From the NCBI GenBank assembly GCA_937892945.1, contig CALBIL010000051.1:1-64000 (forward strand): a stretch of 64,000 nt of DNA, read 5' to 3'. A program made the position numbers and the translations under genes. How positions within the stretch are numbered: position 1 is the first letter of the stretch; each line of letters opens with the position of its first letter. The notes beneath the pieces are model-generated. The model did not search any database, had not been told where the DNA came from, and saw only the letters and a program-made list of their open reading frames with translations. Source of the DNA: an uncultured euryarchaeote (lineage in GTDB: Archaea; Thermoplasmatota; Poseidoniia; Poseidoniales; Poseidoniaceae). This document shows positions 1,446 to 37,505 of this stretch, piece after piece.

Positions 1446-1449
1446 TGTC

Positions 1450-2409
1450 TCACCCCTCATCTTCTGCAAGACCAATCTCCACCAAACGCTGATGCAGATA
1501 TTGACCGGCAGTGATTGACTGGAACAAAGGTTTCCCACCAGTGAGTTGGATAAATTCTTCTCGAGGTGTCAAGTCAATTTCATTGCGTGGATGAACGAAC
1601 ATCGGCATTGAAAATCTTCGAACATTGGAATGACTCGGATTGACAACACGATGCGTTGTTGATTTGAACAATCCATTGGTGAGGTTCTGTAGCATATCTC
1701 CAGAGTCTACAATGATATGGCTTGCATCACCTTTGACTTGTATCCAACTTCCATCATGGTCCATGACTTCGAGTCCATCGGCTGTTGCCGTGACAAGTAA
1801 GGTGATGAAATTGATATCTTCATGGGCAGCTGAACGAACGGCTCCCTGCGGTACTTCTTCACCAAGTGGAGGATAGTGAATGATTCGCATGATGGTATTG
1901 CCATCTGCTGCCATTGAACTGAGCCAATTCTTTTCCTTTCCAAGATACAAACTACAGGAATGCAAGAGACTTTGTGAAAGAGTTTCCATTCGAGTGAACA
2001 ATCCATCGATGACTGGCTTGAATCCAGGGGCGTCTTGTTCAGGCCAGACATTCGCAACATAGGTTGGTACTTCGCCTGTTGTTGGATGGCTGCGGCCACT
2101 TTGCCAAAACTCTTTCAAATCTGGTGCAGGATTGTTTTTGGCATGTTCAATTCCAAAAGCAGTATAGCCACGTTGATGAGCAATTTTGGGTTGCAGATAG
2201 GTCTTCTTGGTCGCTTCACTGAGTGAGAAAAAGGCATCGCCTTGCTGGTAGGCTTGTTCAATGGATTCCAATGGGATTCCGTGATTCTTCAATGCAAAGA
2301 ATCCAATGTCTTTGAGAGAATCACCCACTGCCTGGATGAAGGCTTGTTGCCGTTGAGGTTCACCGCTGGTATACTCGGAGAAATCGACGACAGGGATGCT
2401 TCGCATCAT
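1450..2409 (-). CDS. 2-oxoglutarate/Fe(II)-dependent dioxygenase, isopenicillin N synthase family
   Basis: The 319-residue protein has the two-part architecture of this superfamily. An N-terminal DIOX_N-like region (IPVVDFSEY, FFALKNHGIP) is followed by a double-stranded beta-helix. The iron ligands are visible as H-x-D in AAHEDINF (about residue 193) and His in STTHRVVNP (about 251). The co-substrate-binding R-x-S follows as RFSMP (about 263). Family members oxidise small molecules, and the substrate here is unknown. It ends 4 bases before the nucleoside phosphorylase gene and starts 8 bases after the Bax-inhibitor gene, so they are probably co-transcribed. A link to nucleoside oxidation is only a guess from position. 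Two adjacent ATG codons follow GAGGGGTGAA, and either could be the start. Confidence 0.88.
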   Translation of the reverse strand: MMRSIPVVDFSEYTSGEPQRQQAFIQAVGDSLKDIGFFALKNHGIPLESIEQAYQQGDAFFSLSEATKKTYLQPKIAHQRGYTAFGIEHAKNNPAPDLKEFWQSGRSHPTTGEVPTYVANVWPEQDAPGFKPVIDGLFTRMETLSQSLLHSCSLYLGKEKNWLSSMAADGNTIMRIIHYPPLGEEVPQGAVRSAAHEDINFITLLVTATADGLEVMDHDGSWIQVKGDASHIIVDSGDMLQNLTNGLFKSTTHRVVNPSHSNVRRFSMPMFVHPRNEIDLTPREEFIQLTGGKPLFQSITAGQYLHQRLVEIGLAEDEG

Positions 2410-2417
2410 TTCACCCC

Positions 2418-3218
2418 TCAGTCGAAGTTACTGCGGACTTTTGCAAGAAGTCGAAGCATTTCGATGTATATCCACACAATGGTGACCAATAAGCCGAATG
2501 CACCCCACCATTCACCAACTTTAGGTGAGCGTTGTTGAATTCCTTTTTCGATGAAATCAAAGTTAATGATGAGAAGGAATGAAGCAACAGCTAAGATGGC
2601 GACGGTTATGAAAATTCCAATCGGGCCAGATGAGTGAAGAAAAGGCACATCGAAATTACCCGGGAGGAAGAACAAAACGATTGAGACCAAATACAACATC
2701 ATGATGCCTCCGACAAGCGTGAATATGATTTTCTTGAACATCGGAGTTGCCTTGATGATTCTTGTTGCATACAATCCATACATTGTGCCAGTTATACAAA
2801 TGGTGCCAAGGCCGGCTTGGAAAACAATTCCTTCATACATTGATTCAAACATCATAGAAAAACCACCGATCATTAACCCTTCGAAAACTGCGTAGGAAAT
2901 CATGAGAGTTGCTGGGTTTTCAGGGCGTGAAAATAAGAGTATCAGATAGGTGATAACTCCTCCAAGAAAACCAATCCCTGTCCCGACAATGAGAATATTC
3001 ATGTCAACAGTTATGCCAACCGAAACCAGCATGAGAGCAGAAAAGAGCATTGTTCCAAAAAGGATTCCAATTTTCTGCATTGTTCCTTCATAGGACATGG
3101 TCTCGTATCCATCGATGTTGTTCCAAAACTGGTTCGAGAGAACAGGGTTACTTGAACGATATACCATAGCAATCATTCTTTGGATATCGGGGTCCTTTGT
3201 CAAACTTGTGATGTTCAA
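2418..3218 (-). CDS. Bax inhibitor-1 / YccA family membrane protein
   Basis: The 266-residue protein starts with a soluble stretch containing RSSNPVLSNQFWNN and then has about seven hydrophobic segments. These are the layout and N-terminal motif of the bacterial-type BI-1/YccA family. Some members are pH-gated calcium leak channels; the role in archaea is unknown. The track start is a TTG whose codon overlaps the stop of the upstream lamin-tail/PLD gene by 4 bases. Internal ATG codons at 3176 and 3167 would start closer to the conserved SSNPVL motif and are credible alternatives. Confidence 0.85.
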   Translation of the reverse strand: MNITSLTKDPDIQRMIAMVYRSSNPVLSNQFWNNIDGYETMSYEGTMQKIGILFGTMLFSALMLVSVGITVDMNILIVGTGIGFLGGVITYLILLFSRPENPATLMISYAVFEGLMIGGFSMMFESMYEGIVFQAGLGTICITGTMYGLYATRIIKATPMFKKIIFTLVGGIMMLYLVSIVLFFLPGNFDVPFLHSSGPIGIFITVAILAVASFLLIINFDFIEKGIQQRSPKVGEWWGAFGLLVTIVWIYIEMLRLLAKVRSNFD

Positions 3219-17190: not shown

Positions 17191-17850
17191 TCAGTAGGGC
17201 ACGTCTTTCCAGCCCATCTTGTAGCCAAGAACATTGAATGAACGATGTAACACGGGGGTGATGGCAACTAATGCAAACATTGGCAGTCGCAGTTCAGAGT
17301 CTGCTAAAACAGAAGTACCGAGGAAGATTTGCCCTGCCAAAAACACCATGATGGCAAAAGGCAGTGTGTCGAGAAGAGGGGCTTTCGAAGAGATTTCACC
17401 TTCACGCTTGAGGCCACGACGTCGCTTGACAAAAGAGCCAGTGCTGTCTCCAACGAGGCAAAAGAAACCAAGGAAAGAACCTAAGATGAATGCTGTAAGC
17501 ATGTCTCCTCCAATGGAAAACCAAGCATCCTCTGCTCCCTGTAAGGGATGAGCAAAGACTCCATTTTCTCCAATCACTGCATCAGTTGCAGGAACTTCAC
17601 CAAAGGAAGCCACAATGAGCATACACAAGAGTCCAGAAGTCAATGAACCACCAATGAGGCCGTTCCATGTCTTTCCATCCCCTAAGATTCGATTTCCATC
17701 ACTGAGTGTTCGGCCACCATCGATTGGCCAAGGCCCATATCCCGTTTTAGGTAACCATTTGCCCCACATCATGGCGAAGGTATTCGCCAAAAATCCAGGT
17801 ACGTAAAGCCAAAGCGTCAACACACAAAGTCCAAGAAAATTCATTTTCAT
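17191..17850 (-). CDS. carS: CDP-archaeol synthase (DUF46 family)
   Basis: CarS uses CTP to activate digeranylgeranylglyceryl phosphate, making the precursor for all polar archaeal lipids. The 219-residue product has about five membrane segments and the family's signature near residue 131, GDSTGSFVKRRRGLKRE, followed by LLDTLPF. An early P-x-D-G-G (WPIDGGRTLSDGNRILGDGK) also fits family members. It is slightly longer than most CarS proteins because of an insertion after that motif. The ORF extends upstream into the purD region. I chose the ATG at 17850 because the residues above it look non-coding; ATG 17844, preceded by GGTGATGAAA, is an alternative. It is divergent from purD. Confidence 0.85.
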   Translation of the reverse strand: MKMNFLGLCVLTLWLYVPGFLANTFAMMWGKWLPKTGYGPWPIDGGRTLSDGNRILGDGKTWNGLIGGSLTSGLLCMLIVASFGEVPATDAVIGENGVFAHPLQGAEDAWFSIGGDMLTAFILGSFLGFFCLVGDSTGSFVKRRRGLKREGEISSKAPLLDTLPFAIMVFLAGQIFLGTSVLADSELRLPMFALVAITPVLHRSFNVLGYKMGWKDVPY

Positions 17851-17985
17851 CACCAAAGGCTCACACCTTTGCTTCTTGGCTTGGAGGACGGTCTTTGAAG
17901 CATCCCCTTCGAAACTGCTAGAGGTGGTGAACTGTCTGCATCTCGACGCGATGGGATTATGAGATGGCGGCGACCGACACAGTCT

Positions 17986-19260
17986 ATGGCAGACAAGGTC
18001 GTACTCGTTGTCGGTGGAGGTGGACGAGAACATGCATTGTGCATGGAATTGAAACAATCCAAGCATGTCGGTGAACTTCACTGTGCTCCGGGAAACGCTG
18101 GAACTTCGTATCTGGCGAAGAATCATTCGATTTCAGCGACGGATATCGAAGGGCTGTTGGAATTAGCCAAAACCCTCAATGCAGATTTAGTTGTTGTTGG
18201 GCCCGAAGCACCACTGTGTGCAGAACTTGCTGACCGTTTGTCGGACCTTCAAATTCCTTGCTTTGGTCCAATCGGCACTCTTGCTCATCTCGAAGGTTCT
18301 AAATTACATGCGAAACAAGTGATGCAAGATGCGAATGTCCCAACAGCGGCATTCCATGTTCTTTCTGCTTCAAGTGATGTCGAGGCCGCATTGGATGATT
18401 TCGCAGGAAATCCATGGGTCGTGAAACGAGATGTTTTAGCCGGAGGAAAAGGTGTTGTGGTCACCTCCCAGCGGAATGAAGCGCTGTCCTTTATTCAACA
18501 GTCTATTCAAACTGATGGTCAAGTCTTACTCGAAGAATTCTTACCCGGTGAAGAGGCAAGTATGCTGGTCATTATGGATGGCTCAGGCTACGTTTGTTTA
18601 CCGGCAAGTCAAGATCACAAACGGGCTTTTAACGGCGATGAAGGTCCGAATACCGGTGGGATGGGTGCCTATTGCCCTGCCCCAGTTGTTACCGATGCAG
18701 TACGCCAAAAAACCATTGAAACAATTATTGAACCAATGCATAACTATCTCATTTCAGCCGGAACTCCATACCGTGGTGTCCTGTATGTTGGATTGATGAT
18801 CCCAGAATCTGGTGAACCAAATGTGGTTGAATTCAATGTTCGGTTTGGCGACCCCGAATGCCAAATCACACTTCCATTACTCAAAACCGATGTTTTTGAA
18901 ATTCTTGAAGCGGCAGCAACTGACCGTTTGTCAGAACTCGACATTGAGTTCCATGAACTCTTTGCTACCAGTGTAGTTCTTGCTGCAGAGGGCTATCCAG
19001 AATCACCCGTCAAAGGACGATTGATTCATGGGGTTTCCGAGGAGCCAATACATGCGGATGGGGCAACGGCTTGGATCAATCATGCAGGGACAGGTTTCAA
19101 CGCCGAGGGACACCTCACCTCGACGGGAGGCCGTGTCCTTTCCTGCAGTGCATCTGGGCCGACACTTGAGGCCTCTGTGAACTTAGCATACGCACTTATC
19201 GAAACCATTGAGTTGGAAGGTTCTCACTATCGAACTGACATTGCATTTCGGGCTCTTTGA
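17986..19260 (+). CDS. purD: Phosphoribosylamine-glycine ligase (GAR synthetase)
   Basis: This ATP-grasp enzyme joins phosphoribosylamine and glycine in the second step of purine synthesis. The 424 residues match the normal length. The N-terminal domain begins VVLVVGGGGREHAL. The ATP-grasp core shows VVKRDVLAGGKGVVV and the substrate loop QDHKRAFNGDEGPNTGGMG, and the metal site is in EFNVRFGDPECQ. I started at ATG 17986 because the nine codons above it are not conserved in the family and a GATTATGA element lies about 28 bases upstream, suggesting a leaderless mRNA. No other pur gene lies in the window. Confidence 0.95.
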   Translation: MADKVVLVVGGGGREHALCMELKQSKHVGELHCAPGNAGTSYLAKNHSISATDIEGLLELAKTLNADLVVVGPEAPLCAELADRLSDLQIPCFGPIGTLAHLEGSKLHAKQVMQDANVPTAAFHVLSASSDVEAALDDFAGNPWVVKRDVLAGGKGVVVTSQRNEALSFIQQSIQTDGQVLLEEFLPGEEASMLVIMDGSGYVCLPASQDHKRAFNGDEGPNTGGMGAYCPAPVVTDAVRQKTIETIIEPMHNYLISAGTPYRGVLYVGLMIPESGEPNVVEFNVRFGDPECQITLPLLKTDVFEILEAAATDRLSELDIEFHELFATSVVLAAEGYPESPVKGRLIHGVSEEPIHADGATAWINHAGTGFNAEGHLTSTGGRVLSCSASGPTLEASVNLAYALIETIELEGSHYRTDIAFRAL

Positions 19261-19437: not shown

Positions 19438-22400
19438 ATGGAACAAAAAACTGGCACAACACGCACAGCGCCAGCAGCACCACTTGGATGGCTTATCGCC
19501 CCCCTTGCAGTTCTGCTCGCCATCGCAGCCATCAAGCTCGCAGGAGTCACCTTCGCGCTTGATGTAGACAACCTGACGCCGATGATTTTCATCGTCGTTG
19601 CAAGCATCTTGGGACTTCTCCCATCAATGCTCGAAAAATCTGATTCCGTTGACCTCTCAAAAGCCACAATCTCCCTCTTAACGCTGGCTACTGCTCTCAT
19701 TGGCGCGGAAATCATTTACATGCAAGAGTACGGTGCATTCGCCGGGCTTTTGTTCGCCTTGGTCACCTTTGGCGTTCACTTCATGACTTCCCGTGGCCGT
19801 CATGAACTTGCAACCATCATCATCTTCACGGCCGTTGGTGTTAATCTTGGAATGGTTATGGCAGGCGATGCGCTTGCCCTTCTTCCAGAGATTTACAACA
19901 GGGCAGGTCCTGAAGAACAGGCAAGCTTTGTATCTACTTTGAATTTGAAATACCAAGCCGTTGGATACCAATTCTTTTCCTATCTGACGCTCTTCGTACT
20001 TGTTGGAGCACTTGTTGCTACCTTCATACGTGGCGTTTTGACACCGGTCGGCGAAGTCGGTTGGTTCAGTTATTTGAACAATGAAAGCACCTCGGCATTC
20101 AACAAGAAGAATCTCCCTCTTCAAATTGCTCTTGGTGTTTGGGCACTTGCTCACATCGCAAGTCTTTGGCACTTTGATACCGTATCTGTTGCAGACAAAC
20201 TTGGAATCACTACGGAAGAAGGTTACCACGGTCACTTTGGCTACTGGTCAGCTTTCTTCACCGGTATGGTTGCCATAATTGTTGCAGGTATGTTCTCTGA
20301 GCGATGGCATACTCGTGCAATGACTCTCGGGTCAATGTGGACCTTGTATTTGGTCTCCACATGGTATGATGCAGGTATGTTCTCCATCGATATGCTGAAT
20401 GGTAACTGGGGCAGTTTGATCTGGCTTGGTGTCACCTTCTTTATCGGTGTAGCCATTTACTCCATCTCGACCCATGATACATGGGGCGGATGGGTGAACC
20501 GTGAAGACCACGAATCATCTGGTGGTCGTTTATTCTGGAATCAACATTGGGCAGGTGTCATGATTGGACTTGCTTTCTTCTTCGGTCTTGTTATTCGGAC
20601 GCAATGGTATGTTGTACCATCGATGAATGCCTTCGGAACTGGAAACTGGGACATGACCGGCGGTTCTGACCCTTGGTACATGAAGCGGGTTGTTGATTAC
20701 ATCCTTGCAAACAATGCTCACATGATTGTTGATTCTGACCGTTTCTACCCTGTCGGTGGAATCAACCCTCGACCTCCATTGTTTACCTGGTCAATTGCTG
20801 TAGTCGCAATGTTGCTTGAGCCGTTCTTTGCGAATGGCGATGCGGTTTGGTGGGCTATTCTTTCTCTACCTGCTGTTTACGGCGCTCTCACCATCTTGCC
20901 AGTTGCGATCATTGCACGAGAGCATGTTGGACCAAAGGCAGCTGTGATTGCAGCATGGCTTCTCGCTTTCATGCCAGCACACGTGAGCCACACTACATGG
21001 GCTCTTGCTGACCACGATGGTTTCATCATGCTGTTTATCACCCTCGGATTCATGTTTTGGCTACGGGCCGTCAAGTATGCTGGGACAGAGCGATTGATTC
21101 GCAATTCATCAGCATCGCCTATGGCTCTCATTGCATCAATCACTGCGGTTGTTGAACACCGAAAGGCTGCTTTTGCTGCCGCTGTTTTAGCAGGTGTTAG
21201 CTTCGGTATTGTGTCTCTCGGTTGGAAAGGTTTCGTCGTTGGTCCATCGATTATCTTCTTGGCATATGCCGCACAAGTTGCTCTCAACATGTTCCGTCGC
21301 CGTGACTCAACTACTCTGAATGTCTTGTTCTTGACCATGCTTTCAATTAATCTCTTGATGGCACTTCCATTCTATGGACATCCACAAATTGACCTCATTC
21401 TCAATGGAACCGGTCTTCAACCGTTCTTGTTTATCTTCGGATTCACTTTAGCTATTAGTTTTGTAACAACCGGATTCCGAGACAAGCCTTGGTTGCTCAG
21501 CTTGGGCGTACTTGCTGGGGCAGGTGCTGTATTCTTCTTGGTATTGTGGCTCCTCAAGCAAGCGAACCTCTCAAACGCATGGGATGTATTGTTTACTGGT
21601 AGTGGTTATTTCGCAAAGACAAAGATTTTTGGAACGGTTGCTGAAGCAAACGCACCAGACCGTGGCCAACTCTTTGCTCAATTTGGACCAATTACTTTCG
21701 TCCTCTCATTGATTATGGGTGTTCTCTGTCTCTGGTCTGCTCTTCGAGAACGTAAGCAAACAAAGCTTGTGTTCGGAGTTTGGATTCTTGTAGCCTCCTT
21801 CATGGCTTGGACTGCGGCTCGATTCATGTTCAATGCTACTCCAGCAATCGCCGTTCTTGGTGCATGGGGAATTGTATCTCTCTGGAAGTGGGCAAACTGG
21901 GGCGGTTTAGTGAAGACTTGGAAGAAACTTGGTATTCGCTCGCCAGAAGACCGTATCCGTGGTGCACGAATTGCAGTATGGCGTACACCTTCATTCTCTG
22001 CAATCATGCTCATCATGATTATGCTCCTCGGACAACAATTCACCTATGGGCTTGACGCTGCTATTCCTGGTAGTAACAATGCTGAAGATGAAATTGATGA
22101 AGTAATTTACAACATCATTCCTGATGCATTCCGATGGGAAGTCGGTGGTTTCTCACTTCTCGATGACAGTGGCTATGATGGCAATTGGTATCTGGGATCA
22201 TTCGGTTCCGGATTCAACGACAATGGTTGGAATACTGCCTACGAATGGCTAGCGGCTCAAGATGCTGATGAAGCGTACTCTGACCGCCCAGCGTTCGTCT
22301 CTTGGTGGGACTATGGTTTCCAAGCTCTTGATACCGGCGAACACCCATCCGTATCTGATAACTTCCAATCTGGAATTCCTGCAACTGGTAACATGTTGCT

Positions 22401-25400
22401 TGCACGTAGCCAAGAGGACCTCGTTTCGATGTTCATTTGGCAACTCGGCCAAGGTGACTTTGAATACAATAAGGCGAACACTGGAACATCAACTTTCACC
22501 TCTGGTTACAGCAACATCGTCGACAAGTACCTTGACGATGACCAAATGAAACTCTTCAAGACCATCTCTACAAACCCAGAGATCGACGAAATGATTACAC
22601 TGGCTGAACTCAGCAGTTTTGAAGTGTTCCAAACCAATGACGATGTCGTTGTAGCAGTCGGTTACCACCACACTGATGGTATCTTTGATGCATCGACTCA
22701 ATATTGGCGTATTTACGAAGATGGTGAACGCATGCTCTGTACCGATACTCTCTCTGCTACATGTGTTGACGGAGACTGGTCTGAACAATCTGAAGTCAAC
22801 CGAACTTTCACCAACAATATTCGATCCGGTGCTGACACAGTACAAGATACGACGCACTACATCGTTGGGGATTACTGGTACACAGCCGATTTGATTGAAG
22901 AATTCGATTCTGTTGCAACCCATATCCATCGTACGAATACCCGTCTTTCACTCACTGTTCAACTACTTACAAACAGTCTTGATGACGGTCAAATCATTGA
23001 CCTGTATGACGACTTGATTAATCTTGAAGGACATTACTCTGTTCAGGATTACGAAGGTGCTCCAGGCGACATGATTGAACGTGACCATGAAATCCGATAC
23101 TTTGCAATTGACAACCGATTGTACCCTCGCGCAGGTCGTTATACTCAAGATATGAATTACAACCAAGGACAACCTATGGGTATCTTTGGTGCTCCAACTA
23201 TTCTGAGTGGACAAGATATTTCCACTTACATGGATGAAGTGTACGAAACTATGCGTGGAGAATTCCCTGATGAAATGTCTCGAGTCGAAGTCGACCAAGC
23301 AATTACAGAGGATTTCCTTAACCAACAATCGGGTGCAGATATTGACCCATTACAAGTTCAAGATGTCCGTGTTGACCACAACGCTGCTTTCTTTGACACA
23401 ATGCTTGCACGAACCTATGTTGGATATGGTGCATCATCACTTGGCATCGATTCAGGATCATCGAACCCGCAACCTGCTCAACATTTCGGTCAATCCGGTA
23501 GTCCAGGTAGCATTCTCAGCCAAGCCCTACCACTTCCAGGTGCCATGCAAAACCACTTTGTTATCGCAAATTGGTATTCACCTGAAGCAAACAGTTCAGT
23601 GACTGCAGAACAACAATTCTCGAGTATTTCTCAGACCAATACACTTGTCAAGATTCTCAAGTATTACTCCGGTGCAGAAATCTCTGGTCAAGTCACAATG
23701 AGTGATAATGGTCAAGGTCTACCTGGTGTTCGATTGTTGATAGAGCGAGATGCTTTCTCTGGCGAAGGTGTTGAAGATCTCGACCCAGATACATACTGGG
23801 TTCCAATCGGTTTCACAGATGCAGATGAAAATGGCCATTGGTCATTCGAAGCACCTGCTGGTCGTATTCGTGTCAGTGCATATGCCGGTGATTACAACCC
23901 AATCACTGCTCAAGACAACATTCGTTCTGGTGCTTTCTCACAAGGTCTCGGTGATATTCTCACCGAAACCAATGATGATCGTCAAACCAATGATATCACT
24001 GCCATTCTCGGTGAAGTTGCCAACATGAGTTGGCTCGGTGAGTCTCAACTCAACGTTACAGCACCGCAGGCAGACCGATTTGTTGATGTCACAACTTCAC
24101 TCGACATTGCTGTTGAAAGCAGTGGTGTTTCAGGTCAAGTCACATGGACTGGACACGAATCGTTTGACGGAGATGCACTTGTCAGTACTGATTTCATCTT
24201 GCGTAACATTTGGTCAATGACCGAGAACTACACGCTCACGACAACCAATGGTTCATTCTCATCTGAGGACACTCGTATCCTTCAAGGAACTGGTGAAGTA
24301 ACCTTCACTGAAAATGGAACCTTTGAGAGCAGCGGTGTTGCCTTTGCGGACGACTTTACCGGAACCTTTACTCGTTCTATTGCAGATAACCGTGTTTACA
24401 CGAGCAATGGAACCTGGAACGGTAAGGGCTCTCTCGTTGCATCATGGGTTGCGAATCAAAGTGTTGTCTCTTGTCTCGATAACGAAACAGCTCCAATGCC
24501 TGAGAATGAAACACTCTGTATTCAAGATTCTTCAGCATCACCAATGGTCTATCTCCTCGATGGTAAAGTAGAAGCAAACGGTCGTCTTACCTCTGACGGA
24601 ATCTCTACATTGGTGACTGAACACGCCGGTGACTCGTTTGAAGGTACAGGTTCGTTCGAAGGAATTGGAACACTCAATGGTACTGGACTGTTTGTCGGTC
24701 CAGGTGAGTTCTCTGGACCAATGGTTCAAGCCGGTTCATTCTACATCACCGGATTGATCCCTGGTGTCTACAACATGATTGCTCAATTGAATAACGGCAA
24801 GGAAGTTCTTTTGCCAGACCCAGTCAACGTTGGAATCTCTCCTTCGTATGATTTGGCCATGACTATGCCGGGTTCTATCTTTGAAGATACCCTCGATGAT
24901 TTCTTTGACCAACCATTCTCGAATGAAACCATCCAGTTGATCGATGTCGATTTGGGTCATGATGAAATTATGGAAATAATCACCGATGAAAATGGTAACT
25001 TCTCGTATGGGCCTATGGCTGCAGGAGAGTACTATTACAGAGTTGACGTTGATAACGATGGCTGGTATGAATTGAATGAAACCTTCACTGTTCGAGATTC
25101 ATCAGAAAATATTTCCTTGACAATGAGTGTTCCAGAGATGCATGATGTCTCACTTCAACTCACATCTCCAGTCGATGCACAAACCCAGGAACCATATACT
25201 GATGTTTCTGGGCGAGTGGTGACCTTCACGAACACTGACCCATTATTTGCTCCAATAAACTCGACTTCGGATGAGGACGGTCTTGTCTACATTGAATTGC
25301 CAATGGGTGCTTACACGATTTCAGATGAAACTGGGGACAATTACATTTTGTTCGACTATGTCTCTCTTGAAACAGAAGATATCTCAATGACGAGTGCTTA

Positions 25401-28400
25401 TGCAATTGGAACTTGGGTTAACGGTTCGATTCGTGTGATGGATGGTGGCCTTGAATACGCTCAATGGTCTCTCGAAGAAGAGTCTGCGAAGTTCGATCAA
25501 AGTCAACCTGCTTCCGGAATTGAAATCGACTTCGCGTCCAATGACTTATCGTTCTCGACCACTGTTGAAACCAATGGCAACTACAGTATTCGTCTTCCAA
25601 GTGGTAATGATTTCCACATGACGACCTTCAGTATTGCTTCACAGATGTCTGGCGGTCAATTGCTTGTACTCACAGGAGATGATGAACTTGACAACGGTCT
25701 CATGTATCTTGAACCAACCATTTCAGCGACAGGATTTGTTTATCTTTACGATAACACCTCACGTTGGGATGGACTTGTTCCAGGCTACAATGTACAAACT
25801 GTTGTTGCAACGAATGCAGATGGACTTGAATGGAAAACCACAATTGATGATATTGGTGGTTTCGAATTCCATCTTCAATCAGGAGAATGGGACTTCACAG
25901 TTGAAGATGAAGCATTGAATTCTTCAAATATCGAGAATTACAATATTATCGCTGAACCCGATTCATTCCCTAGTGCGATTGAATTGTTTGTCTCTCCAGA
26001 CTACCTCACCATTGAATTGAACATCTTCATGGATGCAGGTGGCGATAGCATCTTTGCAAACGGAACACTTGTGAGCCCTTCGTTCACTCTGATGCCGCTC
26101 AACGTTCACGGCCAACAGCACAATTACACAGCTGCAGACTATACCTCTCCTGGAAACATTACTGTTGTACTTGAACCCGGAATCTACAGTCTGCAATTCA
26201 ACACCACCGAGGCGGGTGATGAAAATGCATCCGATTACCCACTCGTTGGTACTCTTGCGTTCGACCCAATTCTCGTTGGGCTCGATGCATATGAAGAAGC
26301 AGTTGCATTCCCTCTTCGTAACGATTACTTGGTCACTGGAGAACTTACAAACCTAAGTGGTGGCGCAGTTGAAAAGCAATTCTTGCTGCGAAATGAGGCC
26401 GATGATTTGTGGTTTAACATGGCATCTGATGTCAATGGCAGTTTCGCTGCCTATGTTCCTGCTGGAGATTGGGTTGCAATTGTTGCTCCATTCTTTGCGG
26501 ACAATGACAGCACTGAAACACTTCGCTACCCATTCACGGTTGGCGATGATTCATCCGTTCGTACTGGCTTGAATCTCTCTTCATCTGATGTTATTGAACT
26601 GAAGTTCCAACTTCAAGAATTCAATACCGAGGACAACATGTCCGGTATTCGCGTAACACTTGTGAGCCATGATGGATTTGGCAATGTGACGCTTTCCAAA
26701 TCTGATGATAATGGAAATGTTAGTGAACAATTGATGCCAGGAAACTGGAGTTTGTTCCTCAACGAAACCTCACCTCAACAACATTGGACTCTGGACACCT
26801 CTTCGACACCATTCTCGACTGATTCAGCCGTTGAGGGTATCATCGATCTTGGACTCATCACAGCAGAACTTGAAGTTCAAATTGGTGGAAAGGTCTTCTG
26901 GGACCTCGATGACGATGATATTCCTGACGGAACTGAGGGTGTTGCAAACACAACGGTAACTATTCTTGGAATGAATAATTCTGAGATCGATACCAACGTA
27001 ACAACAGATGAATTCGGAGTTTGGTCTCTGTTTGTACCAATTCAAGATGAATACCAAGTTTCCGTGAGCAAGGAAGGCTTCAGTACTGAAGTCTACAATG
27101 TCTCGAACACGAGTGCTTACCCTGTTTACTCTGAACCTGAATCCTACGATATTGAAATGACCGCAGGAAATGTGAGTGTTTCTGGTAATGTTACTGACAT
27201 TAACGATGCAAACCGATTGAACGGTTCAACTGTCATCCTTTACCCTGCAAGCGGGATGGCTGGTGAATCTCAATCCATCACTCCGGTGTTTGACAATGAC
27301 CAACTGAGTTGGTCGGCAGTTATTGCACCTGGCAAGTGGGTCGTTGTGGTTACAGAAGTAAATGCTGGAGAAAACGGTGGCGGTGTCGCTGTTGGCTTAC
27401 TCGATGCAAGTATCTCCGATGGAGCAACCCTCGACCTTGAGATGTCTCTTGGTGGATGGATCGACTTGACAACTTCATGGACCGATATTGATTTGGTTGA
27501 ACACCATGCAGGTTCTGCTGATAATGGTTCATCTCTGCTCAACGAAACCGTAATGATAACATTCGGCCTCGGTTCCGATGTCGAATGGGATATGGAAGTT
27601 GGTAGCGATGGTGGCATTAGCATCCTCATGCCAGCGGGTGAAGTGGAAATGGATTCCTCTTTCATTACCCTTCAACATGATTTGCTTCTGGAGATGGGAT
27701 ACATCGGCGGTACAGTGACTCAGGTTGCTGAAGGTCGTTCTCCAGTTACTCTTTCATACACACGTACAATCAACTCTGATACCACAATTACCATCGTTGA
27801 AGGCAGTATGGTCAACGCAACATTGGTAGCGGATTCCGACCTTGCATTCTTAGCAATCGCAGAAGGTGAAGGTTACCAATCCATTGAATTTGATTTGGAT
27901 ATTGATTACGAAGGGACTGAAACTGTTCAAGTGTTTGATGTTCTTGGCCAAGTTGGGGTTTCACCGGACGAAGCGGACTGGAATGTTGAATTCTGGAACG
28001 GAACTGCGTTTGTCGAATCATACGAACTTTCACTTGGAATTGGAAATAACTCAAATGATACAACTGTTGAATCTTCAACAGTTCTCCGGGTTCGTATTCT
28101 TACAGCAAACCAGTCTGAAGCATGGCATTTGGAAAACCCTCATATCTTGAAGGTTCGTTTGATTACCGATTCTACACCATCCAGTGAGATTGCAGTCACC
28201 GTTCAAGTTCCACAAATCTACGGATTTGAATTGAGTGATGTTGTCACTGAAATTGGTATTGGAACTGGCGGTAGTGGTTCATTCGGATTCATGCTTGTAA
28301 ACACAGGTAACGGTGATGATGCGTTTACTATTGAGCTCGTAGATAACATTCCAGACGGTTGGGAAGTGACACCAATGAATTCAGTCATAAAAATTGCAAA

Positions 28401-29010
28401 GGGCGACAGTCGCTCACAATTGTTTACGGCGTACTCGTCTGACGACTTCACCTCTGGTACCAAGACTGTAACCGTTCGAGTCACCAGCGAAGATGGCGTC
28501 TTTACAGATACTTTCGATGTTGAGATCACGAAAGCAAGCATTGAACTTTACATTAATCAAGGTCAAATCGTAACACTTTCGAGCAAAACTGCCGACGAGG
28601 CCGGTCAACTCAAAATTCCAGTCACTAATCTTGGTTTCTTGGGAAGCGATGACGTTTCAGTCACTGCAAGTATCCAGAATGGTAGAACATTAGGTACACA
28701 GACGGTTACTCTTAATCCAAACGGTACCACGGTTGTCATATTCGACTTAACTGCAGACGATGCATCAGGTTCTGTCCGGTTTGATGTGCGAGTCGAAGTT
28801 CTTGGAGATGACGCAGATCAAGTCATTCAAGAAATTGGTATAGAAGACGGAGAACAAACGATTGACTTCTCAATTGAATACTACATCCAAACCGATACCG
28901 ATGAGACAGCAGATACTTTGTTAGTTGCTGGAATCGTCATACTCGGTTTACTCGTAATTTATGGTGGAGTCCGATTGGCTCGCTCGAAGTCTTCATCGAC
29001 TCGATTCTGA
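19438..29010 (+). CDS. aglB: Giant STT3/AglB-type oligosaccharyltransferase with added membrane region and very long ectodomain
   Basis: The 3190-residue protein transfers lipid-linked glycan to Asn in N-x-S/T sequons outside the cell, judging by its catalytic motifs. GGSDPWY (first acidic motif) lies near residue 408, LADHDGF near 521 and WWDYG near 956. A SDNFQSGIPATGNMLL stretch shortly after WWDYG fits the start of the C-terminal globular domain. About 370 residues of extra hydrophobic segments precede the first motif, which normally lies near residue 40-50. From about 1410 to 3150 there are repeated Ig-like or carboxypeptidase-regulatory-type beta domains (pattern I-x-G-x-V...D-x-x-G-x-[WF]) and a late NEW3-like domain (NTGNGDDAFTIELVDNIPDGW). 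The end is one membrane helix (about 3160-3181) and a basic tail. Known archaeal AglB proteins are about 600-1000 residues. The ectodomain has many sequons itself. A subtilase gene follows 70 bases later. Confidence 0.9.
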   Translation: MEQKTGTTRTAPAAPLGWLIAPLAVLLAIAAIKLAGVTFALDVDNLTPMIFIVVASILGLLPSMLEKSDSVDLSKATISLLTLATALIGAEIIYMQEYGAFAGLLFALVTFGVHFMTSRGRHELATIIIFTAVGVNLGMVMAGDALALLPEIYNRAGPEEQASFVSTLNLKYQAVGYQFFSYLTLFVLVGALVATFIRGVLTPVGEVGWFSYLNNESTSAFNKKNLPLQIALGVWALAHIASLWHFDTVSVADKLGITTEEGYHGHFGYWSAFFTGMVAIIVAGMFSERWHTRAMTLGSMWTLYLVSTWYDAGMFSIDMLNGNWGSLIWLGVTFFIGVAIYSISTHDTWGGWVNREDHESSGGRLFWNQHWAGVMIGLAFFFGLVIRTQWYVVPSMNAFGTGNWDMTGGSDPWYMKRVVDYILANNAHMIVDSDRFYPVGGINPRPPLFTWSIAVVAMLLEPFFANGDAVWWAILSLPAVYGALTILPVAIIAREHVGPKAAVIAAWLLAFMPAHVSHTTWALADHDGFIMLFITLGFMFWLRAVKYAGTERLIRNSSASPMALIASITAVVEHRKAAFAAAVLAGVSFGIVSLGWKGFVVGPSIIFLAYAAQVALNMFRRRDSTTLNVLFLTMLSINLLMALPFYGHPQIDLILNGTGLQPFLFIFGFTLAISFVTTGFRDKPWLLSLGVLAGAGAVFFLVLWLLKQANLSNAWDVLFTGSGYFAKTKIFGTVAEANAPDRGQLFAQFGPITFVLSLIMGVLCLWSALRERKQTKLVFGVWILVASFMAWTAARFMFNATPAIAVLGAWGIVSLWKWANWGGLVKTWKKLGIRSPEDRIRGARIAVWRTPSFSAIMLIMIMLLGQQFTYGLDAAIPGSNNAEDEIDEVIYNIIPDAFRWEVGGFSLLDDSGYDGNWYLGSFGSGFNDNGWNTAYEWLAAQDADEAYSDRPAFVSWWDYGFQALDTGEHPSVSDNFQSGIPATGNMLLARSQEDLVSMFIWQLGQGDFEYNKANTGTSTFTSGYSNIVDKYLDDDQMKLFKTISTNPEIDEMITLAELSSFEVFQTNDDVVVAVGYHHTDGIFDASTQYWRIYEDGERMLCTDTLSATCVDGDWSEQSEVNRTFTNNIRSGADTVQDTTHYIVGDYWYTADLIEEFDSVATHIHRTNTRLSLTVQLLTNSLDDGQIIDLYDDLINLEGHYSVQDYEGAPGDMIERDHEIRYFAIDNRLYPRAGRYTQDMNYNQGQPMGIFGAPTILSGQDISTYMDEVYETMRGEFPDEMSRVEVDQAITEDFLNQQSGADIDPLQVQDVRVDHNAAFFDTMLARTYVGYGASSLGIDSGSSNPQPAQHFGQSGSPGSILSQALPLPGAMQNHFVIANWYSPEANSSVTAEQQFSSISQTNTLVKILKYYSGAEISGQVTMSDNGQGLPGVRLLIERDAFSGEGVEDLDPDTYWVPIGFTDADENGHWSFEAPAGRIRVSAYAGDYNPITAQDNIRSGAFSQGLGDILTETNDDRQTNDITAILGEVANMSWLGESQLNVTAPQADRFVDVTTSLDIAVESSGVSGQVTWTGHESFDGDALVSTDFILRNIWSMTENYTLTTTNGSFSSEDTRILQGTGEVTFTENGTFESSGVAFADDFTGTFTRSIADNRVYTSNGTWNGKGSLVASWVANQSVVSCLDNETAPMPENETLCIQDSSASPMVYLLDGKVEANGRLTSDGISTLVTEHAGDSFEGTGSFEGIGTLNGTGLFVGPGEFSGPMVQAGSFYITGLIPGVYNMIAQLNNGKEVLLPDPVNVGISPSYDLAMTMPGSIFEDTLDDFFDQPFSNETIQLIDVDLGHDEIMEIITDENGNFSYGPMAAGEYYYRVDVDNDGWYELNETFTVRDSSENISLTMSVPEMHDVSLQLTSPVDAQTQEPYTDVSGRVVTFTNTDPLFAPINSTSDEDGLVYIELPMGAYTISDETGDNYILFDYVSLETEDISMTSAYAIGTWVNGSIRVMDGGLEYAQWSLEEESAKFDQSQPASGIEIDFASNDLSFSTTVETNGNYSIRLPSGNDFHMTTFSIASQMSGGQLLVLTGDDELDNGLMYLEPTISATGFVYLYDNTSRWDGLVPGYNVQTVVATNADGLEWKTTIDDIGGFEFHLQSGEWDFTVEDEALNSSNIENYNIIAEPDSFPSAIELFVSPDYLTIELNIFMDAGGDSIFANGTLVSPSFTLMPLNVHGQQHNYTAADYTSPGNITVVLEPGIYSLQFNTTEAGDENASDYPLVGTLAFDPILVGLDAYEEAVAFPLRNDYLVTGELTNLSGGAVEKQFLLRNEADDLWFNMASDVNGSFAAYVPAGDWVAIVAPFFADNDSTETLRYPFTVGDDSSVRTGLNLSSSDVIELKFQLQEFNTEDNMSGIRVTLVSHDGFGNVTLSKSDDNGNVSEQLMPGNWSLFLNETSPQQHWTLDTSSTPFSTDSAVEGIIDLGLITAELEVQIGGKVFWDLDDDDIPDGTEGVANTTVTILGMNNSEIDTNVTTDEFGVWSLFVPIQDEYQVSVSKEGFSTEVYNVSNTSAYPVYSEPESYDIEMTAGNVSVSGNVTDINDANRLNGSTVILYPASGMAGESQSITPVFDNDQLSWSAVIAPGKWVVVVTEVNAGENGGGVAVGLLDASISDGATLDLEMSLGGWIDLTTSWTDIDLVEHHAGSADNGSSLLNETVMITFGLGSDVEWDMEVGSDGGISILMPAGEVEMDSSFITLQHDLLLEMGYIGGTVTQVAEGRSPVTLSYTRTINSDTTITIVEGSMVNATLVADSDLAFLAIAEGEGYQSIEFDLDIDYEGTETVQVFDVLGQVGVSPDEADWNVEFWNGTAFVESYELSLGIGNNSNDTTVESSTVLRVRILTANQSEAWHLENPHILKVRLITDSTPSSEIAVTVQVPQIYGFELSDVVTEIGIGTGGSGSFGFMLVNTGNGDDAFTIELVDNIPDGWEVTPMNSVIKIAKGDSRSQLFTAYSSDDFTSGTKTVTVRVTSEDGVFTDTFDVEITKASIELYINQGQIVTLSSKTADEAGQLKIPVTNLGFLGSDDVSVTASIQNGRTLGTQTVTLNPNGTTVVIFDLTADDASGSVRFDVRVEVLGDDADQVIQEIGIEDGEQTIDFSIEYYIQTDTDETADTLLVAGIVILGLLVIYGGVRLARSKSSSTRF

Positions 29011-29080: not shown

Positions 29081-30307
29081 ATGAAGGGTCTTGAGAATTT
29101 GGACTTGCTTCCAGAGCCTGATGATCCTCGAATTCTCTCCGCAATTGACCCTTCTGCCGTTGGGTTCCAAGATGGTTGGAGAGCCGAAGTCACTGGATGG
29201 GCTCCTTTAGATGCTGTCCCAGTCGCCCGATTACGACGGAAAAAAATACTTGCCACTAACGGGGCCGTATTTGCGATTCTTGTCATTATATTGCTCGTTG
29301 TTTGGGATTCAGGACTTCTTTTTCTCGAACTCCCACCGCCAAAATCGGAATGGGCTCAAGAACAATCACAACTCGATGAATTTTCAGACCTCGGACTCAC
29401 AGGTTCTGGAGTCCGGGTTTGTATGGTTGATACTGGAATTGACTTGAGTAACACTGCTTTTTCAGAAGTTGAAGTGACGTTTAAGGACATGATTGGAACC
29501 TCAAATGCTCCGGTTGATTATGGATTCATTTCCCATGGGACTCTTATGGCAGGAATATTAGTTTCTGGTAGTCACCAAATGGGTATTGCTCCAAACATCA
29601 CTCTGGCCATGGTTGCTGCTTTAGGCGCTGATGAAAACGATATGAACAGTGGTTCAGAACAAACTGTGGCGAATGCAATAGCTTGGTGCCAAGATACTTT
29701 TCAAGCAGATATCATTTCACTTTCCCTTGGTGGAGAACAAAACATCGAAATGCATACTGAAGGCACAAGTGTTTCAGCTGTCCGCAGGGCTGTCGATTCG
29801 GGTATATTCGTCGTTGCTGCTGCAGGTAATGATGGCGGAGACGCTGACGACGGCTTAGTTTCAGTACCCGGCAATGTCCCTCGGGTCATCACTGTAGGCG
29901 CCTCGACTCGAGATCAAGCAGTATGGGTGAATTCTTCCAAAGGTTCGCAAATCCTTTCGGATGCGACTTTACGTCAAAATCCTCACATGAAGCCTGAAGT
30001 TATCGCACCTGGCGAAAACATCATCAGTACGGGTATTGGGGAAACTTGGTATTCGAGTAGTGGTACCTCCGATTCGACTGTTTTCGTCACAGGAGCCTTG
30101 TCGTTACTTCTTGAAGCGTTCCCTGAATACAAGCCAAATTCATCTTCCAATGGTGACTGTATTGATCAAGTAAAACTCTCATTGATGAATTCCTCGCTCA
30201 AATATGAAGACACGGTTGAACATGATAACCATTGGGGATACGGCCAACTTCAAGCCATGGATTGGTATCTTGATTTGGCCGTTCAGACGCCATCGTGTTC
30301 GTTTTGA
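29081..30307 (+). CDS. Membrane-anchored subtilisin-like serine protease (S8 family)
   Basis: The 408-residue protein has about 65 cytosolic residues, one membrane helix (FAILVIILLVVWDSGLLFL, about 66-85) and an outer subtilase domain. The catalytic triad is intact: Asp in VDTGID (about residue 119), His in SHGTLMAG (about 150) and Ser in SSGTSDS (about 328). The oxyanion Asn lies in AAAGNDGGD (about 250). There is no propeptide of the usual kind between helix and catalytic domain, only about 30 residues. It could mature or shed surface proteins made by its neighbours; this is inferred from position. The ATG at 29081 is the only start that keeps the cytosolic segment. Confidence 0.92.
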   Translation: MKGLENLDLLPEPDDPRILSAIDPSAVGFQDGWRAEVTGWAPLDAVPVARLRRKKILATNGAVFAILVIILLVVWDSGLLFLELPPPKSEWAQEQSQLDEFSDLGLTGSGVRVCMVDTGIDLSNTAFSEVEVTFKDMIGTSNAPVDYGFISHGTLMAGILVSGSHQMGIAPNITLAMVAALGADENDMNSGSEQTVANAIAWCQDTFQADIISLSLGGEQNIEMHTEGTSVSAVRRAVDSGIFVVAAAGNDGGDADDGLVSVPGNVPRVITVGASTRDQAVWVNSSKGSQILSDATLRQNPHMKPEVIAPGENIISTGIGETWYSSSGTSDSTVFVTGALSLLLEAFPEYKPNSSSNGDCIDQVKLSLMNSSLKYEDTVEHDNHWGYGQLQAMDWYLDLAVQTPSCSF

Positions 30308-34979: not shown

Positions 34980-37505
34980 ATGGCTCTTCAACAGAAACCT
35001 GGAGTTCAGGAGAGAATCCTCCTGCATTTACTTGATTACTCGGATTTCAAGAGCAGTGTCGAGGTTCCATTCGCCCTATCGCAGATGGGTATCGCGAATG
35101 CCGTTGCTATTGCTCGGTCAAATGTACCTCGAGCAATTGCGGGATTGAAAGATGAAGGTCTTTTAATCGAACGACAAGCTCACGTTTCAGGTGTATCTCG
35201 AAAACGCAAAGCGTATTTTCTGACTGATTCCGGAATCAATGTTTCGGAGGATACTTGGTTAAGACTCCGGGATTTCGAATTACGAAGTATCATGGATGAT
35301 GGTGCCATCATTCATTCAACATTGGGTGAACTCAATGACCACCTTAACTTCTCCATGCGCCCGGTCGATATTATCCGATACATGGATGAGAACTGTGTCT
35401 TGGACACCCGTACTTTGTCTGCTGATTTGGTCGAAAGAGACCTTTCAAAACATGTTGAAAAGCAACTTGTGACTTCACTCGGCGACCTCCCTCGTCTACG
35501 ACATTTCTATGGTCGGGAAAAGGAGATGGATAACATGGCGAGTCTTATTGATGCTCGGGCAACCACTTTATTGGTGCCAGGTATAGCAGGGATTGGTAAA
35601 ACAACCATTGCATCAAAACTCATTGAACGCTTTATGCATCGAAGGAATCTTTTGTATCATCGATGTCAAGATTGGGAAGGTTCACGTTCCTTTTTCGAAG
35701 CGGTTGCGGATTGGTTATCGAATTTAGGGGATTCAAGTTTTTCTGACTATTTGGCCGCAACTCCAATTCCACAACCAGCAGATGCAGCACGATTACTCGT
35801 TGACTGCTTGGAAGGCACTCCTACATTGATTGTGATCGATGATTTCCACAAAGTTGCTGACACCACACTCCATCAAACATTTCAAGCAATGTCACTGGCT
35901 TTACTTGGAAGTGAAGAAGAGATTGGCCTGGTCATCTTTTCACGTTCTTTCAAGCCAGTTGTCCCTGCAAAAGACGCAGAAGGCCGAATTGCAAGTTTAG
36001 TTCTCCCACTTGATGGGCTTGATTCCGATGCTGGTCGCCAACTTCTGAGTAGCTTCGAAAACCTTGGAGATGAACAATGGCTGCATATCCACGGACTCTC
36101 ACGCGGTCACCCCTTGGTATTGGAACTGATTAACCGAGGTGCGTCAGCAGGTGCATTCCACGAAACTTTGGAGAATTATGTCACTGTTGAAATCTTTTCA
36201 AAGTTGAGTGGTGAACAAAAGCGTGTTCTTTCTGCACTTGCTATTTATCGTGAGCCTGTTCTTCTAAGTGCACTTGCTGAACAAGGCTTGGACACCGATG
36301 AACTCGATTCATTGGTTGAACAAGGGCTTGCACGACAGGGAGATGTTGACACGTACGATGTTCACGATTTGATTCGGGAATTCCTTTTGCGAAGCCTTGA
36401 TGAGACTACAAAGAAGGAATTCCATGCGAAATGTCACACCTGGTATCAGAAACAGAATGTCACGGCAGCTCTTCTCATTGAACGTATTTACCATCTGATT
36501 CGATCTGGAGAAAGTGGAGATGCAGCATTGTTGGTCGCAGATGAAGGAAGAGACCTCATTGCCCAAGGCCACATGGAATTACTTGGTTTGATCGAAAGTC
36601 TTTCAATGGAATCACTTGACATTCAAGTTCACATGCGTGTTTTGCAACTTCGTGGTGAAATCCTCGTTCTTCTTGGACGGTTTTCAGAGGCAGAATCCAT
36701 ATTCCTTTCAACTCAAACACTTGAATCATCTTCAAAGGTAACTCGCCTTGATGCTGAAGTTCTCTCTGCCTTGGCTGATATTGCTCTTAAGCAAGGAGAT
36801 ACCGACAAAGCACTCACCATGCACCATGATGCACTTGAGAAGTTTATTCAATTTGGTGATGCCAAAGGGGCTGCTCGTTCGTACAATAATATGGGATATT
36901 TACTACGTCGAAAAAATGATATTCCTAAGGCATTGGAAGCTTACGGTGAAGTCGAGGCAATCTTGGAAGGTTCAAACGATACAGAATTGATTGGCACTCA
37001 ACTCACTCTTGCTCGTTCATTTATTGAACTTGGTGAAATTGACCGAGCTCGGAACCATGCACTCGAGGCTTTTGAAAATACGGATGGTGGAGATGATGCC
37101 TTACTCCATGCTCGTGCTCAAGCCGTTCTTGGGCGATATTATGCGAAGGTTGGAGATGCTGATGTAGCCTCACATCATTACTCAACTGCACTTGAAACAA
37201 TGAGCGAAGCAGGAGATTTGCTCTCGTTGGTAGAAATCACAATTTTACTCGGGGAAGTTCTACAGGACTCAGGTCGAGCAGAAGATGCAATGGAGCATTA
37301 TCGCGAAGCATTGGTTATTGCTGAAGCAAATGACTTGCGTATGCAAATCGGAGAACTCCTCTCCCGTTTGGGTGGCGTAGCACCGGACAAACCTCGTCGA
37401 ATGGAATACTTACAACGTGCTTTATCCGTGTTTAGAGAACTTGGTGCTAAATCAAGGATGCGTGAAGTACAAGCTCAAGTCCATGCTGCAGTTATGCGAC
37501 GATGA
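34980..37505 (+). CDS. Winged-helix / STAND NTPase / TPR signalling regulator
   Basis: The 841-residue cytosolic protein has three parts. Residues 1-100 form a MarR-like winged helix (ARSNVPRAIAGLKDEGLLIER, then SRKRKAYFLTDSG). Residues 180-450 form a P-loop STAND ATPase with YGREKE, Walker A GIAGIGKTT near 202 and Walker B LIVIDDF near 283, plus the HPLVLELI segment usual in this group. Residues 560-830 are tandem TPR repeats (GDTDKALTMHHDALEKF, AARSYNNMGYLLRRKNDIP). The arrangement is like MalT/AfsR regulators: the TPR part senses a ligand and the ATPase controls oligomerisation. Its stop lies 1 base from the end of the convergent pilin-like operon. Target genes are unknown. GGAG precedes the ATG. 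Confidence 0.85.
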   Translation: MALQQKPGVQERILLHLLDYSDFKSSVEVPFALSQMGIANAVAIARSNVPRAIAGLKDEGLLIERQAHVSGVSRKRKAYFLTDSGINVSEDTWLRLRDFELRSIMDDGAIIHSTLGELNDHLNFSMRPVDIIRYMDENCVLDTRTLSADLVERDLSKHVEKQLVTSLGDLPRLRHFYGREKEMDNMASLIDARATTLLVPGIAGIGKTTIASKLIERFMHRRNLLYHRCQDWEGSRSFFEAVADWLSNLGDSSFSDYLAATPIPQPADAARLLVDCLEGTPTLIVIDDFHKVADTTLHQTFQAMSLALLGSEEEIGLVIFSRSFKPVVPAKDAEGRIASLVLPLDGLDSDAGRQLLSSFENLGDEQWLHIHGLSRGHPLVLELINRGASAGAFHETLENYVTVEIFSKLSGEQKRVLSALAIYREPVLLSALAEQGLDTDELDSLVEQGLARQGDVDTYDVHDLIREFLLRSLDETTKKEFHAKCHTWYQKQNVTAALLIERIYHLIRSGESGDAALLVADEGRDLIAQGHMELLGLIESLSMESLDIQVHMRVLQLRGEILVLLGRFSEAESIFLSTQTLESSSKVTRLDAEVLSALADIALKQGDTDKALTMHHDALEKFIQFGDAKGAARSYNNMGYLLRRKNDIPKALEAYGEVEAILEGSNDTELIGTQLTLARSFIELGEIDRARNHALEAFENTDGGDDALLHARAQAVLGRYYAKVGDADVASHHYSTALETMSEAGDLLSLVEITILLGEVLQDSGRAEDAMEHYREALVIAEANDLRMQIGELLSRLGGVAPDKPRRMEYLQRALSVFRELGAKSRMREVQAQVHAAVMRR

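Follow-up and report, generated by a model that had tools for sequence, protein, structure and literature searches.

A giant AglB-type oligosaccharyltransferase gene with a long predicted beta-domain tail in Poseidoniales and other Thermoplasmatota

Descriptions of archaeal N-glycosylation enzymes portray compact proteins of one subunit, with fewer than about 1,000 residues. Structural work takes the 868-residue AglB-L of Archaeoglobus fulgidus as the long form of the enzyme (PMC8342417), and a domain scheme is available for such proteins (PMC3703281). In the open-access literature, to which our search was confined, we found no account of extended AglBs and none that joins AglB with Poseidoniales; papers naming AglB alongside Methanomassiliicoccales were unrelated, and none brought together NOMO, Asgard and the translocon. 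An earlier mention in a subscription paper is possible. A second described protein that bears on the present locus is NOMO, in which prealbumin-like domains arranged in tandem lead up to a single C-terminal transmembrane (TM) helix; it sits with nicalin and TMEM147 in the BOS complex at the translocon. The domains number 12, and the complex belongs to the eukaryotic multipass translocon (PMC11186639).

We analysed 64,000 nucleotides of DNA (hereafter the window) from an uncultured euryarchaeote of the Poseidoniaceae (contig CALBIL010000051.1), in which a single unbroken frame of 3190 codons runs from ATG to stop (Table 1). It is the one STT3 match found in the source MAG, which measures 2.03 Mb, is 94% complete and comprises 100 contigs. 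Pfam STT3 (PF02516) aligned with residues 399–669 (E 3e-14, 53.8 bits, above the curated cut-off of 24.5), and NCBIfam archaeo_STT3 (TIGR04154) with residues 375–993 (E 1.4e-47) at a score of 162.6 bits, which lies below the curated cut-off of 450 bits for membership of this archaeosortase-associated oligosaccharyltransferase family. Searches with phmmer matched residues 403–657 to A. fulgidus AglB (3waj; E 1.3e-10) and the core to the AglB C-domains 3vu0 and 3vgp, while the Pfam AglB core model gave a weak match at residues 949–993. Several marks of an STT3/AglB protein are present in the sequence, namely the STT3 domain score, two acidic motifs, a TIXE/SVSE-type motif and WWDYG, and the catalytic residues of the motifs named in the initial annotation (GGSDPWY, LADHDGF with its DHD, and WWDYG) were invariant among 45 orthologues, a set made up of the window gene and 44 fetched relatives from both families of the order (f1 and f2). 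A pattern search for the DK/MI and DGGK motifs gave no match; variants of the DK motif are known to escape recognition easily when no structure is at hand (PMC3703281). The central core carries an order-specific insertion at residues ~1050–1205, where the core HMM match is split in two, leaving profile positions 150–305 uncovered. Taken at the level of sequence, the product is most likely a working AglB-type oligosaccharyltransferase.

Table 1. Features of the aglB locus, in window coordinates; residue numbers refer to the predicted protein.
Feature	Position	Strand	Basis
Whole gene: giant AglB/STT3 oligosaccharyltransferase, 3190 aa	19438..29010	+	unbroken ORF; 45 intact orthologues
N-terminal membrane extension, residues 1–375, ~7 predicted TM helices, order-specific	19438..20562	+	KD hydropathy
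STT3/AglB transmembrane region, residues 376–900	20563..22137	+	Pfam STT3; phmmer to 3waj; HMM matches 36/36 phylum AglBs
First acidic (DXD-type) motif GGSDPWY, residues 408–414, D411	20659..20679	+	invariant 45/45
Second acidic motif DHD, residues 525–527 (D525/D527)	21010..21018	+	invariant 45/45
EL5 TIXE-type motif TVAE, residues 733–736	21634..21645	+	T733, E736 invariant 45/45
WWDYG motif, residues 956–960	22303..22317	+	all positions invariant 45/45
C-terminal globular (central-core) domain, residues 901–1450	22138..23787	+	core HMM; AF2 mixed alpha/beta; phmmer to 3vu0/3vgp
First beta sandwich after core, residues ~1400–1600	23635..24237	+	AF2 strands at 505–584 of model
Long-stranded beta-meander module, residues ~1600–1770	24235..24747	+	AF2 long strands
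Array of prealbumin-like/CarboxypepD_reg-like beta sandwiches, residues 1771–2900	24748..28137	+	Pfam, AF2, Foldseek
Membrane-proximal Ig-like pair (CARDB/NEW3/choice-of-anchor T type), residues 2901–3150	28138..28887	+	NF041740, CARDB, t4 HMM
C-terminal TM helix 3158–3183, then short basic cytoplasmic end	28909..28986	+	KD peak 2.5; AF2 helix
Conserved sequon N1539-V-T	24052..24060	+	sequon in 41/45 orthologues
Most conserved sequon, N2208-G-T	26059..26067	+	sequon in 44/45 orthologues
purD, conserved upstream neighbour (synteny only)	17959..19260	+	upstream of aglB 24/24 loci; identity read from sequence
Membrane-anchored subtilase (S8), possible operon partner	29081..30307	+	PF00082 E 1.5e-32

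The fragmented state of the source MAG could be taken to favour an assembly or frame artefact that fused aglB with a neighbouring surface-protein gene, and the initial annotation had pointed to a possible assembly error at about 23.6 kb. The uninterrupted frame it reported is nevertheless intact in all 45 orthologues (3,124–3,324 codons), each assembled independently and each continuous over the region matching ~23.6 kb, and homologous fusions occur over the phylum, DHVE2 and Methanomassiliicoccales records among them. Given a contig of sufficient length, almost all genomes of the order carry a single STT3 frame of some 3,120–3,330 codons; the short STT3 frames that we examined in the genome tables lie at contig ends, and in two apparently short relatives (L187 and L197) a frameshift has moved the rest of the sequence into another frame. 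Separate genes for the catalytic part and the array, which according to the initial annotation would have told against a fusion, were found in none of the relatives checked. The gene order purD, aglB, S8 subtilase, a beta-helix protein of 1.5 kaa and an AAA/TPR protein is kept at 21–24 of 24 loci in both families, and in close pairs dN/dS is ~0.05–0.15 for the tail and 0.01–0.11 for STT3 plus core; by this codon-level measure the tail is under purifying selection. With the same fusion in 45 assemblies, along with synteny and selection, we rejected the artefact and give it next to no chance.

Two features of the surrounding region deserve mention. A CarS-like CDP-archaeol synthase gene lies upstream of purD (window 17191–18126, minus strand). 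All f1 loci in which we found this gene have it on the minus strand, and most f2 loci have it on the plus strand; the local inversion roughly divides one family from the other. Downstream of aglB (window 34980–37505, plus strand), a gene encodes a protein of 841 aa that combines HTH, AAA/STAND-like NTPase and TPR domains, and its synteny with aglB is conserved in 21 of the order's loci.

The initial annotation was right in describing an AglB with a beta tail, and it missed the membrane extension of ~375 residues that precedes the STT3 region. In this extension E288, W329 and F334 are invariant among the orthologues, and R121, E123, W290 and W301 nearly so. Its HMM matched none of the 36 AglBs from outside the order, and we found no convincing relative in Pfam or the PDB. 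A duplication of the STT3 transmembrane region was considered as its source and rejected (hhalign probability 0.2%). AglBs of families f20 and f13 (L066 and L067, residues 1–290) bear a different N-terminal multi-helix extension, and because it is unrelated to that of the order, such extensions seem, from sequence comparison, to have been gained more than once in the phylum.

AlphaFold models of residues 900–2080 (mean pLDDT 83) and 1995–3190 (mean pLDDT 88) covered the span from 1400 to 3150 whose structure prediction the initial annotation had proposed, and they predict an all-beta array from ~1400 to 3150 followed by one helix. This helix coincides with the hydropathy peak and bears out the second membrane anchor claimed earlier; model confidence is low at its start. 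The beta tail is likewise real, but its size needs a small correction from ~1750 to ~1,700 extra residues, the canonical part ending nearer 1400–1500. As modelled, the tail would comprise roughly 16 beta-sandwich domains. For the first of them, the HMM matched short stretches in 15 of the 36 other AglBs, and from its position this sandwich may correspond to the AglB P1 unit, while matches to the t1 tail HMM in other families begin past the beta-meander module. Pfam CarboxypepD_reg recognised three stretches of the tail (E 5.7e-15), and a block of ~300 residues within the array recurs at about +490 (1780–2110 versus 2300–2600). Near the membrane, NF041740 matched residues 2914–3025 (E 1.3e-8, below its cut-off) and CARDB, weakly, residues 3043–3120; the t4 HMM of the last tail segment matched the AglB C-terminus in 12 of 36 relatives. 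Because STT3 topology is established and hydropathy shows no TM segment between residues 863 and 3158, the tail would lie outside the cell.

Foldseek searches with both models returned only generic beta sandwiches, the best hits being pilin/adhesin and A2M-type beta domains. Similar sandwiches in solved adhesins and pilins, together with an array long enough to extend past the membrane, could suit a suggestion already made in the initial annotation, that the array recruits acceptor proteins or anchors the enzyme in a surface layer. We think this improbable, since the second anchor returns the end of the array to the membrane, here as elsewhere in the phylum, and so speaks against an arm that reaches out freely, and since in the related order Thermoplasmatales members such as Cuniculiplasma have no S-layer (PMC5155288).

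We found that sequons (N-x-S/T, x not P) were strongly enriched in the tail, with 49 over residues 1451–3150 against 18.2 ± 3.7 in shuffled sequences and 14 for the reversed motif. Over the 45 orthologues, tail sequons stood at 2.40 times expectation (reversed motif 1.04 times) and those of the catalytic part at 0.79 times, and the tails of other phylum members reached 2.72 times. In 39 rows below 60% identity, the +2 Ser/Thr was kept in 560 of 623 cases (90%) where the Asn was kept, versus 37% for other tail Ser/Thr, and retention of the sequon Asn itself was modestly higher (33% versus 25%, p 0.03). These conserved sequons are an indirect sign that the tail is N-glycosylated, probably by AglB itself during its own synthesis, and they support the earlier remark that a sequon-rich tail may also be a substrate. 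No support was found for the companion remark that sequon-rich surface proteins abound in the window: in a sample of the genome comprising the window and 20 further contig stretches, sequons stood at 1.11 times expectation in secreted-type proteins, 1.07 times in membrane proteins and 1.02 times in cytoplasmic ones, and the aglB gene was the strongest outlier. Other surface proteins of the window showed mild enrichment in some cases (32 versus 17.5; 29 versus 19.0) and none in others (16 versus 19.1). A secreted-type frame of 4423 aa elsewhere in the genome (L122:6718-19998, plus strand; G000:C15), open at the end of its stretch, holds 33 sequons versus 58.5 expected and 52 for the reversed motif; sequons are possibly avoided here, in contrast to the AglB tail.

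This selective and conserved enrichment, absent from the sampled secreted proteins of the genome, would be expected if the tail were mainly a substrate, that is, a glycan-bearing surface-coat domain tethered to its own enzyme, which forms a share of the outer glycoprotein layer and has no part in catalysis or acceptor choice. The faster divergence of the tail than of the catalytic part points the same way. A bulk coat, however, needs neither fusion to a single-copy membrane enzyme nor a length held within ~6% over the order at ~25–30% identity, and residues 1450–1800, which adjoin the core, are conserved almost as well as the core. We therefore consider a mainly coat-forming tail unlikely, if still deserving some weight.

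An S8 subtilase gene directly follows aglB at 23 of 24 loci in both families of the order, usually within ~100 bases, and is possibly a functional partner of AglB. A TM segment precedes its catalytic domain, which would lie on the same side of the membrane as the tail, so this membrane-anchored protease might cut the tail off the catalytic part and yield two mature proteins from one gene. We rate such processing as distinctly doubtful: in other families with a long tail we found no S8 gene within 20 kb of aglB, and the models show no standout cleavage site or low-confidence linker between core and array.

The initial annotation held that AglBs total 600–1000 residues, which would make the window gene exceptional, and this does not apply in Thermoplasmatota, where long AglBs of 2,030–2,750 residues with the same layout are normal in most of the other lineages sampled. 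The sister family f3 has AglBs of ~2,320–2,360 aa, many other families have frames of 2,080–2,744 codons, and complete proteins of 2,030–2,410 aa occur in named records from Aciduliprofundum, DHVE2, Methanomassiliicoccus/Methanomassiliicoccales and other Thermoplasmata. Shorter forms are found in families f5, f29, f34 and f16 (~1,160–1,430 residues) and in f15, f21 and f23 (~920–980 residues), and no larger form was seen than that of the window's order, at about 3,200 residues. Tail-segment HMMs matched the tails of other Thermoplasmatota in roughly collinear order among the 36 AglBs outside the order, and most complete AglBs of the phylum end in a C-terminal TM. In a tree of the STT3 part, all forms with a long tail and C-terminal TM fall in one clade (99/96), and because the short-tailed f16/f34/f29/f5 group is nested inside it, the tree tentatively suggests one gain and one shortening of the long tail.

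Profile searches of the PDB linked these tails with NOMO. The order's profile of residues 900–2080 matched NOMO2 (E 7e-5), and NOMO2 was the best match for tail profiles of other Thermoplasmata (E 1.9e-30 for a Methanomassiliicoccales-type profile and 4.5e-9), outranking SdrD, scaffoldins and carboxypeptidases. The window tail also has the NOMO layout, with tandem prealbumin-like domains and one C-terminal TM helix in the model and hydropathy plot. Among 116 phylum genomes none had a NOMO model above its Pfam cut-off; NOMO_5th appeared in 5, always below cut-off and always inside an AglB frame. The window AglB scored 22.7 bits against NOMO1-like_9th (cut-off 27), and one Methanomassiliicoccales tail reached 51.7 bits for NOMO_5th as a whole-protein sum, with no single significant domain. 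Foldseek ranked NOMO only 38th and favoured pilin/adhesin domains, and a collinear homology of the whole array to NOMO found no support, several NOMO domains aligning on the same profile stretch. By analogy at the level of domains, the tail may thus be called built like NOMO, and not a member of NOMO. A bolder proposal would make the Thermoplasmatota chain an oligosaccharyltransferase and a NOMO-like translocon scaffold in one, glycosylating its own tail, and would derive the prealbumin-like domains of the NOMO/EMC7 type in eukaryotes from the AglB tail, or from a recent source common to both; we regard this as a long shot.

The reading that we favour, to which we give somewhat less than an even chance, is that the gene encodes a functional AglB carrying its own beta-domain scaffold, glycosylated and tethered to the membrane, by which the enzyme is kept at the translocon or the cell surface. 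The extracytoplasmic domain of AglB would have been lengthened by a string of beta sandwiches that returns to the membrane at the C-terminal helix, forming a tethered arch outside the cell beside the active site, and this arch may shape a space for handling acceptor chains. In eukaryotes the scaffold's job would fall to separate partners (other oligosaccharyltransferase subunits, TRAP and NOMO). The extended form may have arisen once within Thermoplasmatota, been shortened in some lineages and grown further in the window's order, which would also have gained its N-terminal membrane domain. The genes adjoining aglB are not secretion genes, which counts against a role at the translocon.

At two to four times the described size, the Thermoplasmatota enzyme belongs to a phylum that includes major marine plankton and gut methanogens, and it raises the questions of whether accessory functions spread over many eukaryotic subunits sit here on one chain, whether an oligosaccharyltransferase glycosylates itself, and why sequons should be concentrated on the enzyme in preference to the rest of the cell's secreted proteins. 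Compared with known proteins, the tail shares its fold class with SpaA, SdrD and CnaB-type pilin/adhesin domains, the best Foldseek hits for residues 900–2080, but those belong to covalently sorted Gram-positive surface proteins with no joined glycosylation enzyme. NOMO has a similar string of prealbumin-like/CarboxypepD_reg-like domains and lacks STT3. The AglBs of Aciduliprofundum/DHVE2, Methanomassiliicoccales and other Thermoplasmatota share with the window gene the STT3 region, core, beta-sandwich array and C-terminal TM, with homologous collinear tail segments and sequon-enriched tails; their array is ~500–700 residues shorter and they have no homologue of the N-terminal extension. A. 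fulgidus AglB-L (868 aa; PMC8342417, PMC3703281) has the same STT3 transmembrane region, two acidic motifs, TIXE and WWDYG, and the same central core followed by a peripheral unit, but it ends after its CC/IS/P1(/P2) units, whereas the window AglB adds the long beta-domain tail that closes with a C-terminal TM, has an insertion in its core and starts with a membrane extension of 375 residues.
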